Origin: Streptomyces sp. MMBL 11-1
GTDB lineage: Bacteria; Actinomycetota; Actinomycetes; Streptomycetales; Streptomycetaceae
Length of the DNA: 64,000 nucleotides
Direction of reading: 5' to 3'
NCBI RefSeq assembly: GCF_028622875.1
Contig: NZ_CP117709.1
Coordinates: forward strand, 2,294,001-2,358,000
Positions 2,833 to 31,638 of this stretch are shown one piece after another. The notes beneath the pieces are model-generated. The model had not been told where the DNA came from and did no database searches. It was given only the letters and a program-made list of their open reading frames with translations. Position 1 is the stretch's first letter, and each line of letters starts with the position of its first letter. The translations under genes were made by a program, and so were the position numbers.

Positions 2833-5454
2833 TCAGCTCTGCGGGAGGGCCGCCAGCTGGGCGCCGATCCGCTCGATGTCGGCCTCGGCCTTGGAGAGCC
2901 GGCCACGGATCTTGTCGACCACGTTGTCCGGGGCCTTGGCGAGGAAGGCCTCGTTGCCGAGCTTGCCCTCCGCCTGGGCCTTCTCCTTCCGCGCGGCCTC
3001 CAGGTCCTTCGTGAGGCGCTTGCGCTCGGCCGGCACGTCGATGGTGCCGGACAGGTCCAGGGCGACAGTGGCCCCGGCGACCGGGAGGGAGGCGGTGGCG
3101 CTGAAGCCCGTTCCGGCCGCTTCCAGACGCAGCAGCTGGCGGATGGCCGCCTCGTGCGGGACGAGCGAGGTACCGACGAGGGTCAGCTCGGCGGGGACCT
3201 TCTGCCCGGGCTTGAGCCCCTGGTCGCCCTTGAAGCGGCGGACCTCGGTGACGACCTGCTGGACCAGCTCGATCTCCTTCTCGGCCGCCTCGTCGCGGAA
3301 GCCGGAGTCGGCGGGCCAGTCGGCGACGACCACGGACTCGCCGCCGGTCAGCGTGGTCCACAGCGTCTCCGTGACGAACGGGACGATCGGGTGGAGCAGG
3401 CGCAGGGTGACGTCGAGGACCTCGCCGAGGACCCGGCCGGAGACCTTGGCCTGCTCGCCGCCCGCGAAGAACGTCGTCTTGGACAGCTCGACGTACCAGT
3501 CGAAGACCTCGTCCCACGCGAAGTGGTACAGCGCGTCGGAGACCTTGGCGAACTGGAAGTCGTCGTAGTACCGGTCGACGTCGGCGACGGTCTGGTTGAG
3601 GCGCGACAGGATCCAGCGGTCGGTGGCCGTCATCGCGGAGGGGTCCGGGAGCGGTCCCTCGATCGTCGCACCGTTCATCAGGGCGAAACGGGTGGCGTTC
3701 CAGATCTTGTTGGCGAAGTTGCGGGAGGCCTTGACCCAGTCCTCGCCGATCGGGACGTCGGCGCCCGGGTTGGCGCCGTTGGCCAGGGTGAACCGGACGG
3801 CGTCGGAGCCGTAGGCGTCCATCCACTCGATCGGGTCGACCGCGTTCGGGTTGGACTTCGACATCTTCTTGCCGAACTCGTCGCGGACCAGGCCGGTGAG
3901 GGCGACCGTCTTGAAGGGCACCTCGCCGTCCATCGCGTACAGGCCGAACATCATCATCCGGACGACCCAGAAGAAGATGATGTCGTGGCCGGTGAGCAGG
4001 ACGTCCGTGGAGTAGAACTTCTGCAGGTCCGGCGTCTGTTCCGGCCAGCCGAGCGTGGAGAAGGGCCACAGGCCCGAGGAGAACCAGGTGTCCAGGACGT
4101 CCTCGTCCTGGGTCCAGCCCTCGCCGGTGGGCGCCTCGTCGTCGGGGCCGACACAGACGACCTCGCCGTTCGGCCCGTACCAGACGGGGATGCGGTGGCC
4201 CCACCAGAGCTGGCGCGAGATCGTCCAGTCGTGGAGGTTGTCGACCCAGTCGAAGTACCGCTTCTCCATGTCCTTGGGGTGCAGGGTGACCCGCTCGTCG
4301 CGGACCGCGTCACCGGCGGCCTTGGCGAGCGTCTCGACCTTGACCCACCACTGGAGGGAGAGCCTCGGCTCGACGGTGGTCTTGCAGCGGGAGCAGTGCC
4401 CGACGGAGTGGACGTACGGGCGCTTCTCCGCGACGACACGCCCCTGTTCGCGCAGCGCGGCGACGATGGCCGAGCGGGCCTCGAAGCGGTCGAGCCCCTG
4501 GAAGGGACCGGGCACGGTGATGACACCGCGCTCGTCCATGACCGTGAGGGACTCCAGGTCGTGGCGCTGGCCGATCGCGAAGTCGTTCGGGTCGTGCGCC
4601 GGGGTCACCTTGACGGCGCCGGTGCCGAACTCCGGGTCGACGTGGGTGTCGGCGACGACCGGGATGGTGCGGTCGGTGAGCGGCAGCTTGACGCGCTTGC
4701 CGATGAGGTGGGCGTAGCGCTCGTCGTCGGGGTGGACGGCGACGGCGGTGTCGCCGAGCATCGTCTCGACCCGGGTGGTGGCGACGACCAGGGTCTCGTC
4801 GCCCTCGCCGTACTTCAGGGAGACGAGCTCGCCGTCGTCCTCCTGGTAGTCCACCTCGATGTCCGAGATGGCGGTGAGGCAGCGCGGGCACCAGTTGATG
4901 ATGCGCTCGGCGCGGTAGATGAGACCGTCGTCGTAGAGGTCCTTGAAGATCTTCTGGACGGCGCGGGAGAGGCCCTCGTCCATGGTGAACCGTTCGCGCG
5001 ACCAGTCGAGGCCCGCGCCCAGGCGGCGCAGCTGGCCGAGGATCCGGCCGCCGTACTCTTCCTTCCACTGCCAGACCCGCTCGACGAAGGCGTCGCGCCC
5101 GATGTCGTGGCGGGACTTGCCCTCCTCGCCGAGCTGCTGCTCGACCTTGTTCTGCGTGGCGATGCCCGCGTGGTCCATGCCGGGCAGCCACAGCGTCTCG
5201 AAGCCCTGCATCCGCTTGCGGCGGGTGAGGGCGTCCATCAGCGTGACCTGGAAAGCGTGTCCCAGGTGCAGGGCGCCGGTGACGTTGGGCGGGGGGATGA
5301 CGATGGTGTACGGGGGCTTCTGGCTCTTGGCGTCCGCCTCGAAGTAACCGCGCTCCACCCAGCGCTCGTACAGCTTCCCCTCTACGTCGGCCGGCGTGTA
5401 CGTGGTCGGCAGTTCGGGGTTGCTGGCTGGCTGCTGCGATGAGTTCTCGGTCAC
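2833..5454 (-). CDS. valS: Valyl-tRNA synthetase
   Basis: Class I aminoacyl-tRNA synthetase that charges tRNA-Val. An in-frame ATG lies at 5487, but the GTG at 5454 (protein VTENSSQQ...) is preferred because family alignment begins just after it; this gives 873 residues, the usual size. The HIGH-type motif HLGH is at about residues 63-66 and KMSKS at about 530-534. The CP1 editing domain is seen in [20 protein letters not shown] (about 226-244). A C-terminal coiled coil rich in Lys, Glu and Ala contacts the tRNA. I looked for a T-box leader upstream and found none. Confidence 0.96.
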
Positions 5455-5569
5455 GGGGGACAGTTTAGGGCCGTCACAGGTCTGCACTGAAACGGATTGG
5501 TTCAGTAACGGTGTCCGACCCGATCCCCCATGTCAGGACGGCTTCCGTCAGGATGTTCGCAACGCATAA

Positions 5570-5729
5570 GGTCCGGCCGGCACGTGGAGGGCGGGAGAAG
5601 GAGCGGGGCTGGGTGCGTGCAGCTGCAAGGCGGAGGATTGAGTCAACGCGGAGCGTTGGTGATTGACGACAACGCCGCAGATGCGCGTGCCCAGCCCCGC
5701 GACGCCGCCCTCCACGTGTCGGTCGGGCC
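5570..5729 (+). ncRNA. 160-nt hairpin, candidate structured leader RNA or sRNA
   Basis: Read on the plus strand the segment folds almost end to end. Helix 1 pairs 5570-5594 with 5705-5729 (25 bp). After an internal loop (5595-5602/5701-5704), helix 2 pairs 5603-5621 with 5682-5700. Then come 5623-5626/5677-5680, 5629-5632/5673-5676 and an apical CAACGC-GGA-GCGTTG hairpin (5644-5658). Six to seven pairs are G-U when read on the plus strand, and none is A-C, as expected if the plus-strand RNA is what matters. It ends 10 nt before the SD (5739-5745) of the downstream gene. It could be a cis-acting leader, an independent sRNA, or a palindromic mobile remnant; no target-site duplication is seen. 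Confidence 0.55.
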
Positions 5730-5753
5730 GAGAATTCTGGAGGGGACACCGCA

Positions 5754-6758
5754 ATGAGCTACAACCAGCCGGGCCCGTACGGCGGGCAGCCGCCGCAGGG
5801 CCAGCCCGGACCGTACGGACAGCAGCCGGGCCCGTACGGCGCCCCGCCGCCCCAGGGCCCCCCGCAGGGCCAGCCCGGCTACGGCTACCCGCAGCAGGCC
5901 CCCCAGGGAGTCCCCCCGCAGCAGCCGAACCCGTACGGGCAGCCGCAGCAGCCGCAGCAGGGCTACGGCTACCCGCAGGCCCAGCAGCCGGGCCCCTACG
6001 GCCAGCAGCCGCCGGCGCCTCCGTACGGCGGGCAGCCGGGGTACGACGGACAGCCGCAGCAGCCGAAGAAGAAGACCGGCCTGATCGTCGGCGTGGCCGT
6101 GGTGGCCCTCGCGGTCATCGCGGGCGGGGTGTACTTCCTGACCTCCGGCGGCGGCAGCGGTGACGTGGCGGACTCCACGAAGGGGTACAAGCTGACGCCT
6201 GCCGCTTCGGTGGACGACTACAAGCAGGACCCGTCCAAGAAGAAGCCCGAGTCGGCGATGACCGGCACGAAGAAGGCCGAGGCCGAGGCGATGGGGATCA
6301 AGAACCCTCACACGGTCGCGGCCCAGTACGTGAGCGGTGATCTCAAGACCAACCCGCTCCTCGCGAAGATGCTCATGCTGCAGGGCGCCTGGGGCGAGAT
6401 CGAGGACCCGGAGAAGGCCATCGACGGCTCCTTCAAGAACGCCGAGAAGGAGGTGGCGGCGAGCGAGAACAGCGAGGGGTCGCTGGTGGGCAGCCCGAAG
6501 TCCGCCTCTCCGGACGGCTTCGAGGGCGCGCTGATGAAGTGCCAGGACGTCAAGGTCATCAATGACAAGGCGGACGGCACGGCGCAGAAGGGGCCCAAGG
6601 AGATGACCATGCCGGTCTGCATCTGGGCCGACTACAGCACGATGGGCGTGGTGATCGGCCTCGACGTCGGCGGTGCCATGACCAACAAGCCGATGACACA
6701 GGACGAGACAGCCGCGCTCACCGCCAAGCTCTACAACACCTCCCGCACCAAGATCTGA
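5754..6758 (+). CDS. Pro/Gln/Tyr-rich single-pass membrane protein
   Basis: A 334-residue protein of unknown function. Residues 1-102 are a low-complexity tail of GPYG, QPPQ and GYPQ units. A KKK stop-transfer cluster and one membrane helix (about 105-127, [19 protein letters not shown]) follow. The remaining 200 residues would lie outside the cell and contain two cysteines (in MKCQDV and PVCIWAD) that could form a disulfide. This architecture (disordered Pro-rich cytoplasmic tail, one helix, small extracytoplasmic domain) is common in Streptomyces, but I do not recognise a named domain. SD GGAGGGG at 5739-5745. A 160-nt structured element lies directly upstream and may control it. A strong terminator follows. 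Confidence 0.85.
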
Positions 6759-11509: not shown

Positions 11510-11586
11510 TGGTCGGGGTGGCCGGATTCGAACCGACGACCTTCCGCTCCCAAAGCGGACGCGCTACCAAGCTGCGCCACACCCCG
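11510..11586 (-). tRNA. tRNA-Pro (anticodon TGG)
   Basis: The minus strand gives a complete cloverleaf: acceptor CGGGGTG/CACCCCG, D-stem with CAGCTTGGTAG, anticodon loop CTTTGGGA with TGG, and the T-loop GGTTCGAATCC. The CCA end is encoded. There are 77 nt including CCA. Confidence 0.96.
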
Positions 11587-11729: not shown

Positions 11730-11803
11730 GCGGGCGTAGCTCAATGGTAGAGCCCTAGTCTTCCAAACTAGCTACGCGGGTTCGATTCCCGTCGCCCGCT
11801 CCA
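11730..11803 (+). tRNA. tRNA-Gly (anticodon TCC)
   Basis: Acceptor GCGGGCG/CGCCCGC, D-arm TAGCTCAATGGTAGA, anticodon loop CTTCCAA with TCC, T-arm GCGGGTTCGATTCCCGT, and encoded CCA. There are 74 nt including CCA. It is divergent from the tRNA-Pro gene, 143 bp away. Confidence 0.97.
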
Positions 11804-30385: not shown

Positions 30386-30594
30386 CAAGTCCTCCTGATC
30401 AGCGGGGCGGGCGGGCAGCGGGCGGCGCGACCGTGGTCCCGGCCCCGGGCCGCCCGGCTGCCTGGCCGGGTCCCCCGGAACGACGGGACCAAACGCGCGA
30501 CGGCGTACGCAGCACGGAACAAGGAGCAAATCACCTTTGTCGCGCAAAGGGGAGGAATGGAAGGGAGAGGAAAGGGTGGTGCCGTTGGTCCTAG

Positions 30595-30764
30595 GCCCTG
30601 TCGTCACACTGCCGTCGTCGCCCGCAGGGCGGCCGCGCGGCCGCCGGTGCGGGCGATCACAAGGCGCCGGAATGGTCTTGCAGCGGAGCTACCAGGGCAT
30701 TTCGGCAACGCCGCGAGCGTGCGTGCCGGGCGTCGCGCGGCAGACGGCAGTGTGACGACAGGAC
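30595..30764. mobile_element. 170-bp MITE-like element with terminal inverted repeats
   Basis: Both ends carry the same inverted sequence of about 22 bp (left GCCCTGTCGTCACACTGCCG, right end with one mismatch at position 2). A CTAG occurs immediately outside each end (30591-30594, 30765-30768), consistent with a target duplication. The inside has no ORF but contains a strong hairpin: GCCCGCA/TGCGGGC (30620-30654) enclosing an 18-bp perfect palindrome. This is the layout of a non-autonomous element; CTGTCGTC-type ends resemble IS5-group elements of streptomycetes (recalled). It lies between transketolase and sodF. Confidence 0.75.
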
Positions 30765-30814
30765 CTAGGCCGAAGGGCTGATCATTTCGGAGCACTCCTG
30801 CTGTTAGCCTGCTG

Positions 30815-31515: not shown

Positions 31516-31599
31516 CCGGGCGCCGGCCCGCCGCCCCGCCACCACAGACGTCCTGCCTCGTGATCGTCTTCTCCACCTTCACCCGGCAGGCGGATGAAC

Positions 31600-31638
31600 G
31601 GAGAGCCCCCGCGAGGACGTGACTCGCGGGGGCTCTCC
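31600..31638 (+). terminator. Terminator of sodF
   Basis: A 16-bp perfect stem, GGAGAGCCCCCGCGAG at 31600-31615 pairing with 31623-31638, loop GACGTGA, 85 bp beyond the sodF stop. Confidence 0.85.

Follow-up and report, generated by a model that had tools for sequence, protein, structure and literature searches.

MITEs are regarded as worn copies of an insertion sequence (IS), defined by its ends: the ends of a MITE are normally those of a single autonomous IS, and long terminal inverted repeats, target duplications and the absence of genes are its usual traits. Within the IS5 family, subgroups generate either 2-bp TA or 3-bp TNA duplications. The Correia/NEMIS, RUP, ERIC and RU elements are hairpin MITEs that are conserved in sequence within a genus or family, and we know of no comparable core with variable arms, present in two phyla, among them. 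Hairpins also serve as substrates in the IS200/IS605 ends and the REP/REPIN sequences, whose orientation runs along replication; passages of the same source describe IS608-type elements as inserting into the lagging-strand template and report insertion biased relative to replication for other transposons (PMC5371812).

The element considered here is a 160-nt hairpin in Streptomyces sp. MMBL 11-1. The family to which it belongs resembles IS5-family MITEs in being small, non-coding, bounded by terminal inverted repeats, flanked by a short target duplication, multi-copy and recently amplified, but differs from them in that its ends vary between lineages, no IS sharing those ends has been found and a structured core is common to two phyla. 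With the Correia/NEMIS, RUP, ERIC and RU elements it has in common a fold that runs from end to end, a location between genes and possible co-transcription with its neighbours. Hairpin structure and replication-linked orientation are shared with IS200/IS605 and REP/REPIN, but the flanks seen here fit TA duplications and, in the favoured orientation, the lagging template is the less stable of the two strands; judged by the G057 family described below, and assuming that the stable plus strand is the active one, the element does not fit the IS200/IS605 or REP type. Like the Rfam families, the element has a covarying plus-strand fold; unlike them, it scored no match to Rfam 15 at gathering thresholds, either over the hairpin or in 14 further loci, in agreement with the first-pass annotation of this DNA, which had recognised no riboswitch or T-box. 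At E values up to 5 only two sub-threshold miRNA matches were returned over the hairpin (29.8 and 27.2 bits, cut-off 89). A literature search of titles and abstract starts returned no paper describing these elements, and the matches listed by a text search for the core letters were unrelated eukaryotic work.

The window analysed is the whole 64,000-nucleotide stretch. The features discussed are as follows, with remarks in brackets:

2833..5454, minus strand: valS, encoding valyl-tRNA synthetase, a neighbour only
5567..5569, no strand: left flank TAA, perhaps left over from a 3-bp target duplication (GAG at 5730-5732, on the right, does not match it)
5570..5729, plus strand: the whole element, 160 nt, non-coding, with G...C termini (fold, genome searches)
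5570..5594, plus strand: left outer arm of helix P1, lineage-variable in sequence with pairing kept (fold, fetched loci)
5603..5621, plus strand: 5' strand of helix P2, 19 bp, strongly covarying (fold, core alignment)
5627..5637, plus strand: core motif AAGGCGGAGGA (pattern scan, alignment, model R1)
5642..5664, plus strand: apical stem-loop, CAACGC/GCGTTG in the window copy (fetched loci, alignment)
5665..5675, plus strand: core motif GACGACAACGC (pattern scan, alignment, model R1)
5682..5700, plus strand: 3' strand of helix P2 (fold, core alignment)
5705..5729, plus strand: right outer arm of helix P1 (fold, fetched loci)
5754..6758, plus strand: gene for a Pro/Gln-rich protein without a Pfam family, a neighbour only (start present in relatives that lack the hairpin)
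30594..30765, plus strand: second family member in the window, 172 nt (model R1 31.3 bits, E 7.5e-8; fold z -8.5)

Positions 5560-5740 have a plus-strand folding energy of -123.3 kcal/mol, compared with -77.5 +/- 3.95 for shuffled sequences (z -11.6, with 0 of 200 as good), and the extended hairpin of the first-pass annotation is thus real. The minus strand of the same region gives a weaker fold (-94.5, z -6.2), and with DNA parameters too the plus-strand hairpin is the more stable (-66.1 vs -53.6). Folding also reproduced the helices as first described: an outer P1 of 25 bp, a P2 of 19 bp and an inner part made up of two 4-bp helices and an apical stem with a GGA triloop. P1 and P2 are uninterrupted and hold six G-U pairs, three per helix, and the minimum-energy fold has two further G-U pairs in the apical stem, which in other copies reads CATGGC/GCCATG or CGACGC/GCGTCG. 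The absence of A-C pairs, which had been read as a sign of selection on a plus-strand RNA, stands for the two long helices in that nothing interrupts them, but a folding program never outputs A-C as a pair and only this lack of interruptions is informative.

What the first-pass annotation had not observed is that the hairpin sequence is repeated, both in its own genome and elsewhere. A DNA search of the own genome found four further places with 82-86% identity, and a covariance model found 19 copies, including 5570-5729 and 30594-30765, the latter flanked by C-TA (30591-30593) and TA-G (30766-30768). This second element lies some 0.8 kb before a match to the Rfam sodF sRNA (RF02790; window 31548-31638, 102 bits); the window also holds tRNA genes at 11513-11586 (minus strand) and 11730-11800 (plus strand). 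Within the window's genus, 146 of the 199 genomes matched the locus query, in some cases through the conserved valS flank alone. Under strict filters, model R1 had matches in 25 of 198 genera of the window's phylum (33 of 296 genomes), and it gave between 1 and 61 matches in every one of 21 genomes, Clostridia included, that had been chosen for holding a locus. Matching plasmid records number 24, all from Streptomyces, and no annotated gene underlies the 20 plasmid matches listed, two of these records being without annotation. There was no blastn match among 50,697 phage records. Core hairpins were also seen on three IMG/VR contigs classed as viral (L215, L216 and L217), and such contigs are a possible route between hosts.

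In genome G057 a sister element is present 53 times, and 39 of these copies have an identical 158-nt interior. Length is closely kept in the window type as well (157-161 nt in 23 of 24 copies). A longer Streptomyces form of about 184-193 nt has extra left-arm sequence (L022, L025 and L026, for example), and the own genome contains a recently amplified subfamily (L317-L324, L326 and L327) with ends CTAAGGGCTGTCCCG... in which the inner loop GAGGA/GACGA is now paired (GGGACGTCC/GGACGTTCC) and AA and CAA are unchanged. In L004 and L059 the arm or loop of the element seems to be interrupted by the insertion of a different GC-rich hairpin repeat, some 40 nt long.

The insertion target is most clearly seen in G057, where the flanks read CTAG/CTAG in 36 copies, TTAG/CTAG in four and CTAG/CTAA in three, so that among these listed classes TA is present on both sides in 43 of 53 copies. 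Judged by their sequence, the latter two classes are best explained by duplication of a TA within the target around an element that runs from G to C. At least four copies have unequal TAs (TCAG/CTAG, CCAG/CTAG, CTGG/CTAA and CTAG/CAAG) and four more have indels or truncations. Five G057 elements (L055, L220, L235, L238 and L253) abut apparent ends of other MITE-like repeats, and CTAG duplications of older insertions may be hot spots. A clostridial genome, G487 (Clostridiaceae strain 1XD21-72), yielded measurements for 18 of the 19 copies fetched. A length of exactly 160 nt was obtained for 14 of the 18, nine are identical and C-TA...TA-G surrounds 13; three came out at 122 nt, apparently because the script had settled on TA sites inside the element. 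No similarity is evident between the arms of the G057 and G487 elements. For the window type, a scoring that favours equal flanks and G...C ends, and considers lengths of 150-167 nt only, found identical 3-nt flanks in six of 24 copies (TAA three times, TTA twice, CAA once) and none in the other 18, the window copy (TAA vs GAG) included. A dinucleotide flank scan did not single out TA (TA 60, AG 71, CT 67 of 109), because positions within the arms also qualify. Dispersed copies at unrelated sites, empty orthologous sites and, in G057 and G487, a target duplication were all found; in the features tested the element behaves as a MITE, the exception being an autonomous relative, and it is distinct from the MITEs known to us in its strand-specific structured core, present in two phyla whilst the arms vary.

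That core emerged from a scan of named genomes for AAGGCGGAGGA followed, after 22-52 nt, by GACGACAACGC. The pattern occurs in at least 119 stretches; by their titles, the 80 listed comprise 60 from Actinomycetota and 20 from Bacillota, chiefly Clostridia. Most of the folds printed for these loci agree in architecture; in some an arm is truncated or another sequence has taken its place. Arm sequences are lineage-specific yet still pair, and the core, that is AAGGCGGAGGA, the apical stem and GACGACAACGC, occurs in Actinomycetota and Clostridia alike. Of 64 non-redundant cores, 56 were aligned, all less than 80% identical, and eight (L004, L106, L113, L136, L137, L159, L168 and L171) were omitted, an arm having apparently been replaced by insertion or truncation. 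Both 11-mers are invariant by construction, being the search pattern, and the covarying helices lie outside them. Across 25 pairs, 88.2% of cells pair (61.2% in shuffles), 410 cells differ on both sides of the pair (151 in shuffles) and covariation is scored at 0.668, compared with 0.197 +/- 0.013 after shuffling; sliding the structure reduces this score to 0.13-0.18. The number of pairs with a double change (20 of 25, vs 19.6 in shuffles) is a measure that does not discriminate. A covariance test, of the kind proposed in the first-pass annotation, thus supports selection for a folded plus strand.

A strand asymmetry accompanies the covariation. G-U outnumbers A-C in the plus strand by 145 to 17 core cells, which are not independent events and come from a structure derived from the same alignment with RNA energies, giving a slight lean towards G-U; counted by pair column and type the figures are 28 to 11, and individual sequences show a G-U excess in 49 of 56 and an A-C excess in one. 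For the outer 22 bp, 59 elements picked by Watson-Crick pairs alone gave 74:17, and the 30 of them with dissimilar arms gave 39 to 13; a selection rule favouring G-T gave 75:15. When G-T and A-C were treated alike, the outer arms gave 86:33, or 50:28 for dissimilar arms (p 0.017), and this weakening of the outer-arm asymmetry under a neutral control makes the main reading slightly less likely. An excess of G-U is expected if the plus strand must fold, and not from a dead palindrome or a double-stranded binding site. Covariation and G-U excess together thus suggest that selection acts on the plus strand in its folded, single-stranded form, as does the fact that the fold, the approximate length and the plus-strand core are common to Actinomycetota and Clostridia whilst the terminal sequence is not. 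The recurrence of the core with differing arms suggests that it is the fold rather than the sequence that is read. On present sequence evidence the folded strand is most likely RNA. The first-pass annotation had set a mobile palindrome, revealed by dispersed copies with target duplications, against a selected RNA: such copies exist, although the window copy lacks a clean duplication, and with a covarying, strand-asymmetric fold both descriptions are true.

Orientation was analysed in two genomes. In G057 (dnaA at 3.839 Mb), 27 plus and two minus copies lie to the left and six plus and 18 minus copies to the right (p 3e-7), so that 45 of 53 follow replication; in the own genome (dnaA at about 3.836 Mb), the corresponding figures are 9+/2- and 2+/6- (p 0.024; 15 of 19). 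The favoured orientation, that of the 45 G057 copies, makes the plus strand the leading-strand template. A codon model of the flanks, which in a self-test of 230 was right in 216, undecided in 11 and wrong in three, finds a gene 3' end next to most G057 copies (convergent on the right flank in 36 vs 6, with 11 undecided, and on the left flank in 28 vs 10, with 15 undecided). At the clearly convergent sites, where gene direction is neutral, the replication rule is obeyed in 18 of 19. Among the first 100 of 114 listed G057 end sites are four derivatives that have lost the core but retain both ends, all in the minority orientation (p 0.001 as four events, or about 0.04 as two, three of them having the same deletion and perhaps only two events being represented). 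We infer orientation-dependent loss of hairpins whose stable strand is on the lagging template; insertion itself may instead be biased, as reported for other transposons (PMC5371812). The core-less derivatives may still be mobile. In the own genome, L340 (6880600-6881050) is a 53-nt palindrome of the two ends alone, possibly a core-less remnant.

The transposase that would mobilise the element was sought in several ways. Limited searches of two genomes and six plasmid neighbourhoods revealed no longer or autonomous element with the same ends. In G057, no site with the first 13 end bases has a different interior, in a search blind to C at position 21. Beside eight single end sites and one end-only palindrome of the own genome, 10 ORFs were scanned, none with a transposase family in Pfam: three matched an ABC transporter, GlgE and a ketoacyl synthase, and seven, some possibly false frames, matched nothing. 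Six plasmid neighbourhoods of one end type, of which three contain the core, showed no annotated transposase within 2.5 kb in the five with annotation, and inverted-repeat scans of the fetched loci and of 13 DUF4096 loci yielded no partner. A pair of sequences in L151 was considered as partner ends and rejected, the pair being instead the ends of two other MITE-like repeats (Oscillibacter, L151 835-1887; ends GGCCTTGTTTGA, CTA/TA flanks), one copy of which directly adjoins a core hairpin. The nearest likeness is L265, an IS5-like element in G057 with a DUF4096 domain and 20-bp ends carrying GAGGATGTCTC next to TAA. Since its ends and target are similar in style to those of our element, and IS5 subgroups make duplications of the lengths given above, our guess by analogy is that an IS5-family transposase may mobilise it. 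The core travels with different ends, and perhaps with duplications that differ in length, which suggests a module more durable than its transposase.

How else might these observations be explained? The first-pass annotation proposed a cis-regulatory leader or sRNA belonging to the valS/Pro-Gln-rich gene locus, and the setting is indeed suggestive: the very stable hairpin is on the same strand as the gene at 5754 and, as had been noted, stops just short of its SD-like GGAGGGG. Yet of 11 relatives, chosen because in them the match broke off at the left flank, 10 have the gene and its upstream sequence with a bare site and the remaining one keeps a single arm; among the loci read, only G000 and G066 are occupied, and the sister copies in G057 are chiefly found at the 3' ends of genes. 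The constant link to a single gene family expected of a T-box, riboswitch or leader was not found, copies being present at other sites. Regulation of the downstream gene is thereby refuted as a conserved function, and a locus-specific role is very improbable, although an accidental effect on the gene in this strain is possible. An ordinary MITE, with a functionless fold whose arms are kept complementary by palindrome repair (template switching) and a core that is merely ancient, would account for the long terminal inverted repeats, the target duplications and the lack of genes, and the G057 derivatives that retain both ends, three with the same deletion, suggest that the core may be dispensable for movement. 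Arm repair fails, however, to explain strand-asymmetric internal loops common to two phyla (the 11-mers being the search pattern) or the 145:17 excess of G-U over A-C, and a C to T mutation bias of the lagging template would be expected to produce the reverse imbalance in G057. We consider this explanation improbable, if less so than a leader.

The more serious rival is a DNA transposon that is read by structure, its transposase binding at the core and recognising a cruciform or hairpin that replication exposes, with no role for RNA. A folded single DNA strand would leave identical covariation and G-T marks, G-T wobbles being tolerated in DNA. The common fold, length and core with differing end sequences, the orientation that follows replication in two genomes, the greater stability of the plus strand as a DNA hairpin and the failure to find an end-sharing transposase would all fit. 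Against this, the plus strand is the leading-strand template in most G057 copies, the opposite of the IS608-type arrangement, and the flanks are consistent with duplication of TA, an outcome that single-strand HUH transposition does not produce. Recognition of DNA structure thus seems to us unlikely, though the likeliest of these alternatives.

The reading that we favour, and think probable, is that of a small, non-autonomous, MITE-like element that is moved in trans and whose plus strand is selected as a folded strand, most likely as RNA. The non-coding element, about 160 nt long and folded from end to end, inserts into short targets rich in T and A. In the two families with recent copies (G057 and G487) the target is C-TA-G and TA is duplicated; the window type possibly makes TAA-like 3-bp duplications. 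Mobilisation would be by a transposase acting in trans, with the IS5 family as a guess at its identity. Read-through from neighbouring genes would produce the RNA, to which a protein would bind, whether the mobilising transposase itself or an RNA-binding protein of the host, and this binding would keep the element mobile or tolerable.

A broader proposal, which we offer tentatively and as more doubtful than the reading above, is that these are genome parasites of two phyla recognised as a folded strand of about 160 nt, in which the core, as RNA or exposed strand, binds the machinery and the ends are free to drift or to be exchanged for those of different DDE transposases. In these elements the ends are the changeable part; what recurs from Streptomyces to Clostridia is the fold, a length close to 160 nt and a core of about 50 nt that is strand-specific. 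If the proposal is true, the element would be a bacterial SINE-like or RNA-assisted DNA transposon and not an ordinary MITE. Their replication-linked orientation, together with the four core-deletion derivatives seen, all in the disfavoured orientation, also makes these elements natural reporters of hairpin instability on the lagging strand. If the core is RNA, it would be a widespread structured RNA absent from Rfam 15, and recognition of a transposon by its fold would become testable.
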